Positions 8,322 through 24,704 of a stretch of DNA of 46,787 nucleotides are shown piece by piece. Both the position numbers and the translations under genes were made by a program. Numbering within the stretch: position 1 is the first letter of the stretch; each line of letters begins with the position of its first letter. Below the pieces are notes generated by a model. It searched no databases. It saw nothing but the letters and a program-made list of their open reading frames with translations, and was not told where the DNA came from. The stretch comes from a virus: the IMG/VR virus record IMGVR_UViG_3300024999_000161, positions 1 through 46,787 of that record; one strand, 5' to 3'.

Positions 8322-8429
8322 TTATTTCTTCAAAACTTCATTGAACAACTTAATATTGCGTGGGTCACTGTTCCCATCAACAACTACCTTAATTCCGTTT
8401 CCTGATACATAAACAACTTGCTTTTTCAT
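8322..8429 (-). CDS. Small hypothetical phage protein
   Basis: 35 residues, MKKQVVYVSGNGIKVVVDG ... FNEVLKK. ATG with AGGAGG upstream. The composition is typical of a compact beta-rich peptide. The stop codon lies next to the ribosome site of the following gene. Confidence 0.55.
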   Translation of the reverse strand: MKKQVVYVSGNGIKVVVDGNSDPRNIKLFNEVLKK

Positions 8430-8448
8430 TTTTACTTCCTCCTAATTT

Positions 8449-8550
8449 TTACTTCACTAATTTAGATAAGTATCTTTTGATTTGACCCTTAGATTGCTCT
8501 GGCAGCCATCCATTAGTAGTTTTTACCGTACTGCCTTGGAGTCGTTGCCC
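8449..8550 (-). other. Open, coding-like stretch without a conventional start
   Basis: A frame that stays open for 33 codons and ends KTTNGWLPEQSKGQIKRYL-SKLVK. It reads like a real small phage protein but has no ATG, GTG or TTG start before the last few codons. It lies in the only gap of this size in the operon, directly upstream of the 35-residue gene. It may be a decayed gene or one using a rare start codon. Confidence 0.3.
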
Positions 8551-8586
8551 TCAATCAGTCTAGCCCTGAGAAAGTAGGTTAATTTA

Positions 8587-8826
8587 CTAACTTTCGCTAA
8601 CAAGCTTAATCTCAAAAGTATCGAAATCAACAGTTTTGTTACCATTTGGTAGACTGTATTTTTTGTTTATGCGCTCCCACCAATCAGACCTACTAATTTC
8701 AAGATCACGAATAGCTGGTCCGATAATGGCTAGGGTTTGCTTTAATCCACCAATCCCCCTTCTTATACTCAATAGCTCCTCGAATTCATCCCTTGTCACC
8801 GTTGCTAAAATTGCCTCATTGTCCAT
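8587..8826 (-). CDS. Hypothetical early phage protein
   Basis: 79 residues, ATG start with GGGAGG upstream. A helical N-terminal half (TRDEFEELLSIRRGIGGLKQTL) is followed by RSDWWERINKKYSLPNG and a short strand at the end. No family recognised; a soluble small early protein. Confidence 0.55.
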   Translation of the reverse strand: MDNEAILATVTRDEFEELLSIRRGIGGLKQTLAIIGPAIRDLEISRSDWWERINKKYSLPNGNKTVDFDTFEIKLVSES

Positions 8827-22451: not shown

Positions 22452-22580
22452 CTACTTCTTCTTCATCTCCTTATCAAGAATCCTACGCACCAACTCCGAC
22501 TTCCTTATTCCTAATTTTTCGGACAACTCTTCTAGCCATTTGTGTTGCGGTTCTGTAATATACAAATCTATCCTCTTCAC
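22452..22580 (-). CDS. Small ribbon-helix-helix regulator
   Basis: 42 residues, GTG with GGAGGTGAT upstream. MKRIDLYITEPQHKWLEEL is followed by SEKLGIRKSELVRRILDKEM, a classic CopG/RHH layout with a strand then two helices. First gene of the leftward small-gene operon; it probably represses its own promoter just upstream. Confidence 0.75.
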   Translation of the reverse strand: MKRIDLYITEPQHKWLEELSEKLGIRKSELVRRILDKEMKKK

Positions 22581-22704: not shown

Positions 22705-23005
22705 CAAAACAAAAAGCCCTACCCACAATTAAGTGAGCAGGGCTTTTCGTTTGTAACAACAATGTTACGCACATTGTGAAGCGAATCTACTTAAAGATGG
22801 TTGAGCAATATATTTTATTTCCGTTGCATCTCGGAAAACTACTTATATTGTGTAGGCAAGGAATTTCACCTTACACGGCAGCCGAGCTTTCTGCCTAACG
22901 AGTTTTTAACGGGTTCACTCCCTGATACTCCTAGCTTTCACAATGTCGAGTCGAAAAGCTCACATTGCATACTTACCACGATAGCGTCTTATTCCGCCAC
23001 TACAC
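22705..23005 (-). ncRNA. Structured non-coding RNA gene of unknown class
   Basis: About 300 nt between an extended -10 promoter and a terminator, with no credible ORF. Stems seen: 23000-22995 with 22986-22981; CAATGT/ACATTG (22967-22962 with 22946-22941), whose loop (22960-22955) pairs with 22938-22933 as a pseudoknot; GGCAG/CTGCC (22895-22891 with 22881-22877); TACAC/GTGTA (22876-22872 with 22854-22850) around GGTGAAATTCC; CAATATA/TATATTG (22850-22844 with 22812-22806) with an inner TTTCCG/CGGAAA; ACAATGT/ACATTGT (22777-22771 with 22765-22759). The 3' end is the 22711-22749 terminator. I cannot assign a family with certainty; testing against HEARO/omega-RNA and other phage RNA families is warranted. 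Confidence 0.7.
22711..22749. terminator. Strong bidirectional terminator
   Basis: AAAAGCCCT pairs with AGGGCTTTT, with an inner CCAC/GTGG-like match, and T-rich ends on both strands. It ends the structured RNA on the minus strand and has no plus-strand gene before it. Confidence 0.85.
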
Positions 23006-23011
23006 ATTATC

Positions 23012-23043: not shown

Positions 23044-23223
23044 TTATTTCACAGCATCCCGATTCATTAACGTAGCAATGACAGCTGCAATGGCAGAAAC
23101 ACCATTGGCAATAGCATTAATCTGTTCATCGGAAATTATGTCATAACCGAACGCACCTGCCGCCAATTTTACCGCACCCAAAAGACCCATTACAATAGTC
23201 GGTTTACGAAGTTTTTCTAACAT
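23044..23223 (-). CDS. Small membrane protein of the lysis cassette (holin-like)
   Basis: 59 residues from ATG at 23223 with AAAGGA upstream. TIVMGLLGAVKLAAGAFGYDI and AIANGVSAIAAVIATLMNRDA form one certain and one weaker hydrophobic segment. Small phage holin-like proteins of this size lie next to endolysins; here it directly follows the endolysin and may be a second holin or antiholin. Assigned by size, hydrophobicity and position. Confidence 0.55.
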   Translation of the reverse strand: MLEKLRKPTIVMGLLGAVKLAAGAFGYDIISDEQINAIANGVSAIAAVIATLMNRDAVK

Positions 23224-23240: not shown

Positions 23241-24704
23241 TTATCCTAAATACTTCTTAACAGCTTGGGCGGTATCGTACTTGTTGTCTCCCGACAGCAA
23301 AACCTCATTTGCATGACCGGTTGTAGGACCACCAATAACAATGAGTTTTTTCGCCTTCATAGCATCAATTGGAACAGACTTATCATCGAGCCGAATAAAT
23401 ATAGCACAGTTATGTTTCTGTGCTACGTCTGCCCCTGCCCAATAATCTCGTTCTGAGTAAAGCAAAACAGCAACGTTCAACACTTCATTTCCCCCCTCGA
23501 TTTCTGTTTTTATGTCTGCCATAAGCCTAGCCCACGGAAAGTACTTACCTGGGCACTTTGTGGCATATTGTTCATTGTGTTTGTGGTGACATCCTGTAGT
23601 AATCCCATACTGCTTATGCACAGAGATAGCACCTTTTAGCAACCCTTGATACTGAACTTCCGACATTCGATTCTCCTCAAAATTCCCTACACAAGCAATA
23701 GCAAACGACCTCTGATTCATCGTATAGCCGCTACCGTCCGGTGCAAGACCTGTGTCATGGGCTCCTGAATATTTAGCGTCCCTACCCATTTCCATGGACC
23801 CATCGGGCAGGATAACCATATTGTAGCCAATGTCTCCCCAACCTTTAGCCTTATGCTCTTTGCGTATGACGTCGGCACTCGAATAATCTCCAACAGTATG
23901 ATGATAATCAACCATAGTTATTTTGCATGGCCTAATCTGCATGGTATCCTCCTTCTCTGGAATGACCCTATCTGTTATGGCCCATGTCTCCAAGATAATA
24001 CCTGAGTTCATAGGAATGTAACATCTTCCGTTGTCTCCCCAATCGCCACCCCAGCTATTGAGAACAATCCAATCATTCCCCCTCCATCCTACGATGGTCA
24101 TTTCGTGATATCCCTGAAACTGATCGTCCGAAGTTGGATAAGGCACTCTCGGATTAGTCTTATTAACCTGATAAAAGGATTGGTAAACAGAAATCATGAT
24201 GGGAACCGACCCTAACTCAAGCAAGGCCGTTTTAATATCGTCTACAGACCCTAAGGTTGCATAAGCCGTTATTCTATGGGGATAGGCTTTTTCCAGTAAA
24301 GCACTCTTCCTGTTGTCAAATATGTTTTTAATCTGTGGCCACTCTACATTCTCCGGAAAGCTCTCGTAGTCACAGACCCCTAAATCTAGTAGTTGTTTTA
24401 ATGCTTGCCTTGGCATCATGCCATATCCTTGATGATCTTCAGGACCGCGACCTCCATAGATAAAGCCAGGAGAGAGTTTGACATACTCCCCATACTGTCC
24501 TTCTTTTACAATTTCTCTGCAATAGGCAAGCGCATGAGCAACGCAAGAGCCAACTGCTCCCTGACTCTTTACTTCATGATTGTGGGGGATTTCAAAGGCA
24601 TTAGGGAAGGTTGTTGCCACTTGTGGTACTAACTTACTAATACGCCAATCTCTCTCGTCTGGAGGGCTTTTCTGCGCCCCTAATGGTATTGATCTATAGT
24701 CCAT
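23241..24704 (-). CDS. Modular endolysin: papain-like peptidase, amidase_2 and C-terminal wall-binding-like domain
   Basis: 487 residues. Residues about 40-255 form a C1A papain-like domain: HEVKSQGAVGSCVAHALAY (Gln and catalytic Cys), FQGYHEMTIVGW (His) and IVLNSWGGDWGDNG (Asn). From about 256 an N-acetylmuramoyl-L-alanine amidase_2 domain follows: YHHTVG, FAIACVGNFEENR, then GCHHKHNEQYATKCPGKYFPW, with zinc ligands His and Cys. The last ~80 residues (VLNVAVLLYSERDYWAG ... LIVIGGPTTGHA) resemble cell-wall binding repeat 2. A cysteine peptidase in a phage lysin is rare; it could cut wall proteins or peptides. Confidence 0.85.
   Translation of the reverse strand: MDYRSIPLGAQKSPPDERDWRISKLVPQVATTFPNAFEIPHNHEVKSQGAVGSCVAHALAYCREIVKEGQYGEYVKLSPGFIYGGRGPEDHQGYGMMPRQALKQLLDLGVCDYESFPENVEWPQIKNIFDNRKSALLEKAYPHRITAYATLGSVDDIKTALLELGSVPIMISVYQSFYQVNKTNPRVPYPTSDDQFQGYHEMTIVGWRGNDWIVLNSWGGDWGDNGRCYIPMNSGIILETWAITDRVIPEKEDTMQIRPCKITMVDYHHTVGDYSSADVIRKEHKAKGWGDIGYNMVILPDGSMEMGRDAKYSGAHDTGLAPDGSGYTMNQRSFAIACVGNFEENRMSEVQYQGLLKGAISVHKQYGITTGCHHKHNEQYATKCPGKYFPWARLMADIKTEIEGGNEVLNVAVLLYSERDYWAGADVAQKHNCAIFIRLDDKSVPIDAMKAKKLIVIGGPTTGHANEVLLSGDNKYDTAQAVKKYLG

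Follow-up and report, generated by a model that had tools for sequence, protein, structure and literature searches.

The minus strand of the window (the whole 46,787-nt stretch of viral DNA analysed here, IMG/VR record IMGVR_UViG_3300024999_000161) carries a gene that probably, at roughly 70%, encodes a trans-acting phage noncoding RNA consisting of a tRNA-like scaffold and a hypervariable cargo domain. The gene lies between a holin gene, which ends at 23044, and an RHH/HNH operon, which starts at 22580. That its product belongs to a family of tRNA-like RNAs, named TLS (tRNA-like structure) here, is close to certain. An earlier note made from the sequence alone had proposed an orphan or new-class RNA at this locus. 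A real and unassigned structured RNA gene with promoter and terminator is indeed present; the tRNA-like structure with its hypervariable insert was missed in that note.

The extended -10 promoter reported on the minus strand was found at 23040-23012 (TTTCCA-17-TATAAT with TG, -10 box 23017-23012). It has 10/12 matches and is the top of four sites in the region. In the window's phage group, 9/9 related loci keep the same -10 box, which ends 5-6 nt upstream of the RNA, and in most of these nine loci the RNA is directly 3' of the holin gene. With this spacing transcription would start at the TLS itself, and in the window's group the predicted start (T23006/G23005) falls on the first base or bases of the acceptor stem. 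The strong terminator was also recovered, as a 19-bp stem at about 22752-22706(-) in the minimum-energy fold; a simple terminator scan of the region did not list this hairpin. It is 90% identical to a terminator lying further downstream in two relatives, L008 and L007. In L008 a second short promoter-to-terminator unit (8340-8466) is located between the TLS and another unit at 8490-8770, and the window terminator resembles that of the 8340-8466 unit, not the one directly behind the L008 TLS. No ORF of 40 aa or more was detected on the sense strand of the window RNA, in agreement with the first reading. An antisense ORF of 89 aa overlaps the RNA and could not survive the insert swaps described below. 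With its own promoter and a terminator behind it, the TLS of the window's group would function as an RNA in its own right, not as a leader, its expression being predicted from these two signals. Further along, the window encodes at 23241-24704 an endolysin of unusual make-up, with an N-terminal papain-type cysteine protease domain (PF00112) joined to an amidase (PF01510).

A structured RNA of about 300 nt had been claimed. The fold was upheld: the 306-nt RNA has a folding energy of -98.2 kcal/mol compared with -76.1 ± 5.5 kcal/mol for shuffled sequences (z = -4.0, 0/100). The extent was not, because the conserved part is only 158 nt long and is followed by a trailer of about 140 nt that includes the terminator; comparison with relatives showed that the trailer (22753-22848) is unconserved in the family. 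The 19-bp terminator hairpin supplies much of the folding energy of the 306-nt RNA, and the 158-nt part on its own gave a z of only -1.6, so the proof of the fold comes from covariation and not from energy.

The whole TLS occupies 23006-22849(-), and the family model matches both of its halves (23.1 and 23.4 bits). When this segment was folded alone, the minimum-energy structure was the exact scaffold, with a 7-bp acceptor, the 3-bp D-stem, P3, two nt and a 6-bp T-arm, so that all helices are present in the window copy. The acceptor strands TGTGTAG (23000-23006) and CTACACA (22849-22855) form 7/7 pairs, and all seven pairs covary across the family. The Leu-type D-arm (22984-22997) has the stem GCG/CGC and the loop GAATAAGA. 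By sequence and fold, a hypervariable insert (22896-22983) replaces the anticodon and variable arms. The closing hairpin P3 (GGCAG/CTGCC, 22877-22895) stops two nt before the T-stem, which is a family feature, and the T-arm (22856-22874; stem GTAAGG/CCTTGC, loop TGAAATT) is supported by the fold and by T-stem covariation. The pseudoknot described earlier is a candidate: 22960-22955 (AGCTTT) can pair with 22938-22933 (AAAGCT) as S2 across the stem S1 (22967-22962/22946-22941), and a pseudoknot at the same insert position covaries in another member group. Of the two loops that had looked conserved, GGTGAAATTCC is the T-arm of the conserved part, while the TTTCCG hairpin is in the unconserved trailer.

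Relatives were not found directly. A blastn search of the window RNA against phages and plasmids gave no real match, and the first exact pattern, built from the window's T-arm, had zero matches because the window copy is divergent. The neighbouring holin gene was used as bait and retrieved two close relatives. At the matching place in L008, three short RNA blocks are conserved with unrelated sequence between them: the stem sides GTGTAG/CTACAC, a GCGGAATAGGTAAACGC block and a GTAAGGTGCAAATCCTTAC block. Judged by sequence, these are the acceptor stem, a tRNA-Leu-type D-arm and the T-arm. Scanning with the 5' block yielded a dozen further copies, and a scan with the 3' block found more copies in phages and Clostridia, nearly all with a matching 5' half upstream. 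Eight loci (L014, L015, L018, L019, L021, L028, L029 and L049) were taken as chance pattern matches. Among cultured phages, the core query detected the scaffold with different acceptors in SPP1 and in Weissella, Leuconostoc, Enterococcus and SPO1-like Bacillus phages; later matches came from Listeria, Brochothrix and Lactobacillus phages. In a Paenibacillus phage the T-arm half was matched, and partial matches were also obtained in Synechococcus, cyanophage and Klebsiella sequences. The SPP1 copy sits between gene 9 and the scaffold gene 11, within the head operon. The copies in cultured phages are nearly all unannotated and are missed by ARAGORN and Rfam. The pattern was present in only 2/391 Clostridia genomes. 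R1, the spliced-core model, is effective on loci, but at genome scale its prefilter overlooked one known copy, so genome tallies are no census. Two scans of viral contigs, in which only the D-arm and T-loop were fixed and the acceptor was left free, gave at least 234 unique members, with 226 different inserts and 152 different acceptors among the matches listed. The invariance of the D-arm and T-loop in these large scans is thus partly due to selection.

Covariation across homologues, suggested earlier as a check, was very strong. An alignment of 26 cores was almost gapless, with 98.7% of cells paired; it contained 30 double-change cells compared with 8.3 in shuffled alignments (0/500), and covariation was strong at the T-stem and at one D-stem pair. 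In a set of 53 members there were 211 double-change cells (54 ± 6.5 when shuffled, 28-43 in slid controls), and both sides changed at 12/16 pairs. Among the at least 234 members listed, the acceptor pairs at 7/7 positions in 184 and at 6/7 or more in 220, compared with 9 and 38 for shuffled partners, and the T-stem pairs at 6/6 in 223. The covariation of acceptor and T-stem establishes a real, tRNA-like fold that contains a 7+6-bp stack. Homologues keep the stems, and 196 of the at least 234 members have no open sense frame through the RNA, which answers the concern that they might keep a reading frame instead.

The family plan places a 7-bp acceptor on a 6-bp T-arm, 13 bp in total and one above normal. 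The D-arm is of the tRNA-Leu type and carries GG, the T-loop TGCAAAT has G at position 55, and P3 is followed by a two-nt linker and then the T-arm. A D-arm of this type was found in 13/34 phage tRNA-Leu and is almost absent from other tRNAs. G55 occurs in 7/299 tRNAs and throughout the TLS family; it prevents the usual modification of U55, and 13 bp in place of 12 would weaken binding by elongation factor. The D-arm and T-loop are conserved beyond the needs of the elbow, though the scans select for both. Acceptor, D- and T-arms are therefore those of a tRNA in outline, while an anticodon loop (7 nt on a 5-bp stem) is absent and replaced by inserts. The discriminator varies (A117 T76 G22 C19 among the at least 234 members listed), and CCA is not encoded in the members. 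Aminoacylation as tRNA-Leu, considered from the D-arm, was rejected on these grounds, and charging by any one synthetase is unlikely. A TATAAT-like box was found within 22 nt in 15 of the at least 234 members listed.

Within this plan the window copy is, from its sequence, a divergent member. Its D-loop GAATAAGA has 3 nt fewer than the family GAATAGGTAGA and no GG pair, and its T-loop reads TGAAATT where the family has TGCAAAT (also TGTAAAT), so that neither element of the family elbow was found. With both lost, the elbow contact may be lost as well; the tertiary folding of this copy is uncertain, and it may be drifting or decaying. L007, a near relative of the window's phage, lacks the RNA, which is thus dispensable there.

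The insert lies between D-arm and T-arm, sometimes also within the D-loop, and is about 40-120 nt long and often pseudoknotted. P3 of at least 7 bp directly before the T-stem was found in 70 of the at least 234 members, compared with 6.4 after shuffling. Its closing pair is mostly G-C, and its 3' strand ends two nt before the T-stem in most members. Stems that cross P3 occur at twice the frequency seen in controls, and five related inserts show compensatory changes in both crossing helices of a pseudoknot. Inserts are otherwise unrelated: only 86 of the at least 234 members fall in any similarity cluster, the largest having five. Over the 60 nt upstream of the TLS the window matches L017 at 98.3% identity, whereas their inserts share 59.6% identity, compared with 56.6% for shuffled sequences. 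With a near-identical flank and an insert at shuffle level, the insert must have been replaced, probably by recombination through the conserved arms. The window insert has no homologue among the sequences searched, and antisense matching of inserts to their own phage sequence was not above chance.

A second module is present in the D-loop of some Clostridia members. Modules are also reshuffled, as in L045 and L050, which have the main insert in common, L050 carrying an extra D-loop module. In six loci (L016, L030, L039, L041, L047 and L050) this module has a conserved GGTAAAACTAAAYGGC ... TGCTRAATGGTAATAG around two variable hairpins and is aptamer-like. The insert of L024 (9640-9814) contains a second tRNA-like D-arm (TAGCTCAGTTGGTAGAGC) and an acceptor-like stem CATGG/CCATG, that is, a nested tRNA-like structure. 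Inserts of L264, L259, L102 and L301 contain a normal TTCGAAT-type T-arm.

A tRNA was located within 500 nt of the TLS in 40/172 members with enough flank, on the same strand in 40/40, compared with 9.9% for random positions in the same loci. On the upstream side, the closest genes group into clusters of ArpU/RinA-type late activators and sigma-like factors, and downstream genes encode terminase subunits and HNH nucleases. TLS copies are also placed in tRNA islands of large phages. ROOL was found in 8/63 TLS loci scanned, as near as a few hundred nt, and in none of the further TLS loci scanned; most loci, the window included, have neither ROOL nor GOLLD. The known RNAs near TLS are ROOL, mcrA, rliG, rli62, skipping-rope and phage tmRNA. 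Their clustering marks the interval from late activator to terminase and the tRNA islands as RNA hot spots, and the TLS is an unrecognised element of both.

Several other RNA elements were observed in these neighbourhoods. Directly behind the SPP1 TLS (L066 705-760) is a mini-tRNA-like element of about 45 nt, CGGAC...CGGGTTCAATTCCCGG..GTCCG, without an anticodon arm. L007 (4090-4380) and L008 (8490-8770) share a promoter-RNA-terminator unit with 92% identity between them, whose 5' end carries a perfect T-arm (GTTCG TTCGACT CGAAC), with a block resembling acceptor and D-arm further on; the unit may encode a tRNA-like RNA that is circularly permuted. Downstream of the TLS in eight loci (L013, L020, L039, L040, L042, L043, L045 and L048) is a conserved hairpin pair, TATTAA..CTAGG..TTAATA and AGAAC TTTCCTAGTGA GTTCT. 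The loops are complementary and seem to covary, and the pair is likely a kissing-loop RNA element of Clostridia phages. The Enterococcus phage EFDG1 (L069) has at 1645-1995 a tmRNA (RF00023, 140.6 bits) that is unannotated in its record.

Known families did not account for the RNA. No Rfam family reached its gathering score in the window, with GOLLD and ROOL included in the search, and the ROOL and GOLLD models never matched at TLS positions. Permissive Rfam matches in the window (ohsC, rli38 and others) were driven by the terminator hairpin and were far below gathering scores. ARAGORN called no tRNA in the window and none of the TLS copies, and found no tmRNA in the window in its tmRNA mode; the Rfam tRNA model had no match at the TLS. 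A group I intron in a tRNA was rejected, as no Rfam intron matched in the window, the inserts have no common core, and P3 abuts the T-stem. The earlier impression of a HEARO/omega-type guide RNA of an IscB/TnpB-like nuclease has only the adjoining HNH gene in its favour and can be set aside: RF02033 gave no match at E<=10, the fold is that of a tRNA, as are the conserved blocks, and the 244-aa neighbouring protein matches phage HNH endonuclease families only, in line with the observation that no IscB-like gene is present.

As to how such an RNA would work, its tRNA-shaped body may be read or sheltered by the host tRNA machinery, which could provide processing when it is made together with tRNAs, stability, and perhaps binding to a tRNA-binding protein. 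A constant partner would then bind or process the scaffold while the insert meets a variable target, one that might differ between hosts or rivals. We tentatively favour, with low confidence, a function in counter-defence or as a decoy, directed at host systems for sensing or cutting tRNAs or components of translation. We rank a translation-associated role next and, for members lacking their own promoter, a cis role in late operons after it. The family at large could also have a different function.

A translation or ribosome-associated RNA would place a tmRNA-like body on the ribosome or a factor, and its pseudoknot domain would tune translation, of host or phage, late in infection. The plan of tmRNA, a tRNA-like part with pseudoknots in place of the anticodon arm, fits this, as do the co-location with tRNAs and the EFDG1 member, which stands directly behind the phage tmRNA so that the last tmRNA base is the first TLS base. 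The Rfam tmRNA model, however, misses the TLS and in L069 finds only the neighbouring tmRNA; the open-frame survey gave no shared tag frame, an encoded CCA and a fixed discriminator are absent, and hypervariability is unexpected in a ribosome part. We consider this role unlikely. The cis-acting alternative, a tRNA-like processing signal or an antitermination or leader structure acting between late activator and terminase, is doubtful too. Many temperate phages do place the TLS between an ArpU/RinA-type regulator and HNH/terminase genes, the SPP1 copy is inside the head operon, and since many members lie inside late operons without their own promoter, a cis role elsewhere is possible. Against it, a dedicated promoter in the window's group would begin the RNA exactly at the acceptor stem and a terminator follows, TLS copies also occur in tRNA islands of large phages, and a processing signal has no need of a hypervariable insert.

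Two further readings are quite improbable. In one, the TLS is a partner or cargo of the large phage RNAs ROOL and GOLLD, which build hollow cages proposed to hold tRNAs (PMC12286853). The ROOL copies in 8/63 loci agree with this, but most loci lack either RNA, and the co-location would arise because both are independently tied to tRNA islands. In the other, the locus is the remnant of a decayed tRNA-Leu gene or a site of neutral insertion, an old tRNA with its middle overwritten by random sequence. The Leu-type D-arm, the arbitrary-looking inserts and the lost elbow bases of the window copy could be read in this way. For the family as a whole, decay is already contradicted by acceptor and T-stem covariation over 152 different acceptors among the matches listed, by covarying P3 and pseudoknots within the inserts, and by G55, the 6-bp T-stem and the CAT linker, which are shared derived features absent from every tRNA set.

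Hundreds of TLS copies thus occur in phages that infect Gram-positive bacteria, among them the model phage SPP1 and SPO1-like phages. The family seems to have gone unannotated because the insert is rejected by tRNA finders and methods for RNA families are blind to the hypervariable middle. The extreme variability of inserts next to genes that are nearly identical suggests that an arms race is waged by RNA and not by protein. It is conceivable, although we would not call it the expected outcome, that these tRNA mimics of Bacillota phages are a natural modular "display" RNA in conflicts among phage, host defence and rivals, with modules recombining through the conserved arms. The engineered "tRNA scaffold" has a natural counterpart in the TLS, and SPP1 with B. 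subtilis makes its function directly testable.

Mimicry of tRNA is known as a principle from tmRNA, viral tRNA-like structures and Y RNAs. To our knowledge, no family across Bacillota phages that combines an invariant tRNA-like scaffold and a hypervariable pseudoknotted domain has been described; the open PMC text searched contained no description of this one. The TLS is like tRNA (tRNA-Leu, RF00005) in its 7-bp acceptor, Leu-type D-arm with GG, 7-nt T-loop and position in same-strand tRNA clusters. It differs in its 6-bp T-stem, G in place of U at 55 and large hypervariable insert, in having no anticodon arm, fixed discriminator or CCA, and in being uncalled by ARAGORN and Rfam. With tmRNA (RF00023) it shares tRNA-like ends and a pseudoknotted domain that replaces the anticodon arm, and phage copies adjoin. 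Unlike tmRNA it has a true D-stem and a hypervariable domain, no match to the model and, by the open-frame survey, no shared tag frame. ROOL (RF03087) and GOLLD are likewise structured noncoding RNAs of phages and prophages near tRNA islands with no function assigned, but they are hundreds of nt long, conserved throughout and not tRNA-like, and have no match to the TLS in sequence or structure. Bacterial Y RNAs (YrlA) are noncoding and imitate the D- and T-arms of tRNA, as the TLS does. Their tRNA-like module is in an internal loop beyond the Ro/Rsr-binding stem, whereas in the TLS the RNA's own ends form the acceptor stem. Finally, mcrA (RF03010), rliG (RF02415), rli62 (RF01486) and skipping-rope (RF02924) occupy the same interval or island, 60-130 nt from some copies, and are separate adjacent elements; the rliG alignment ends where the TLS begins.
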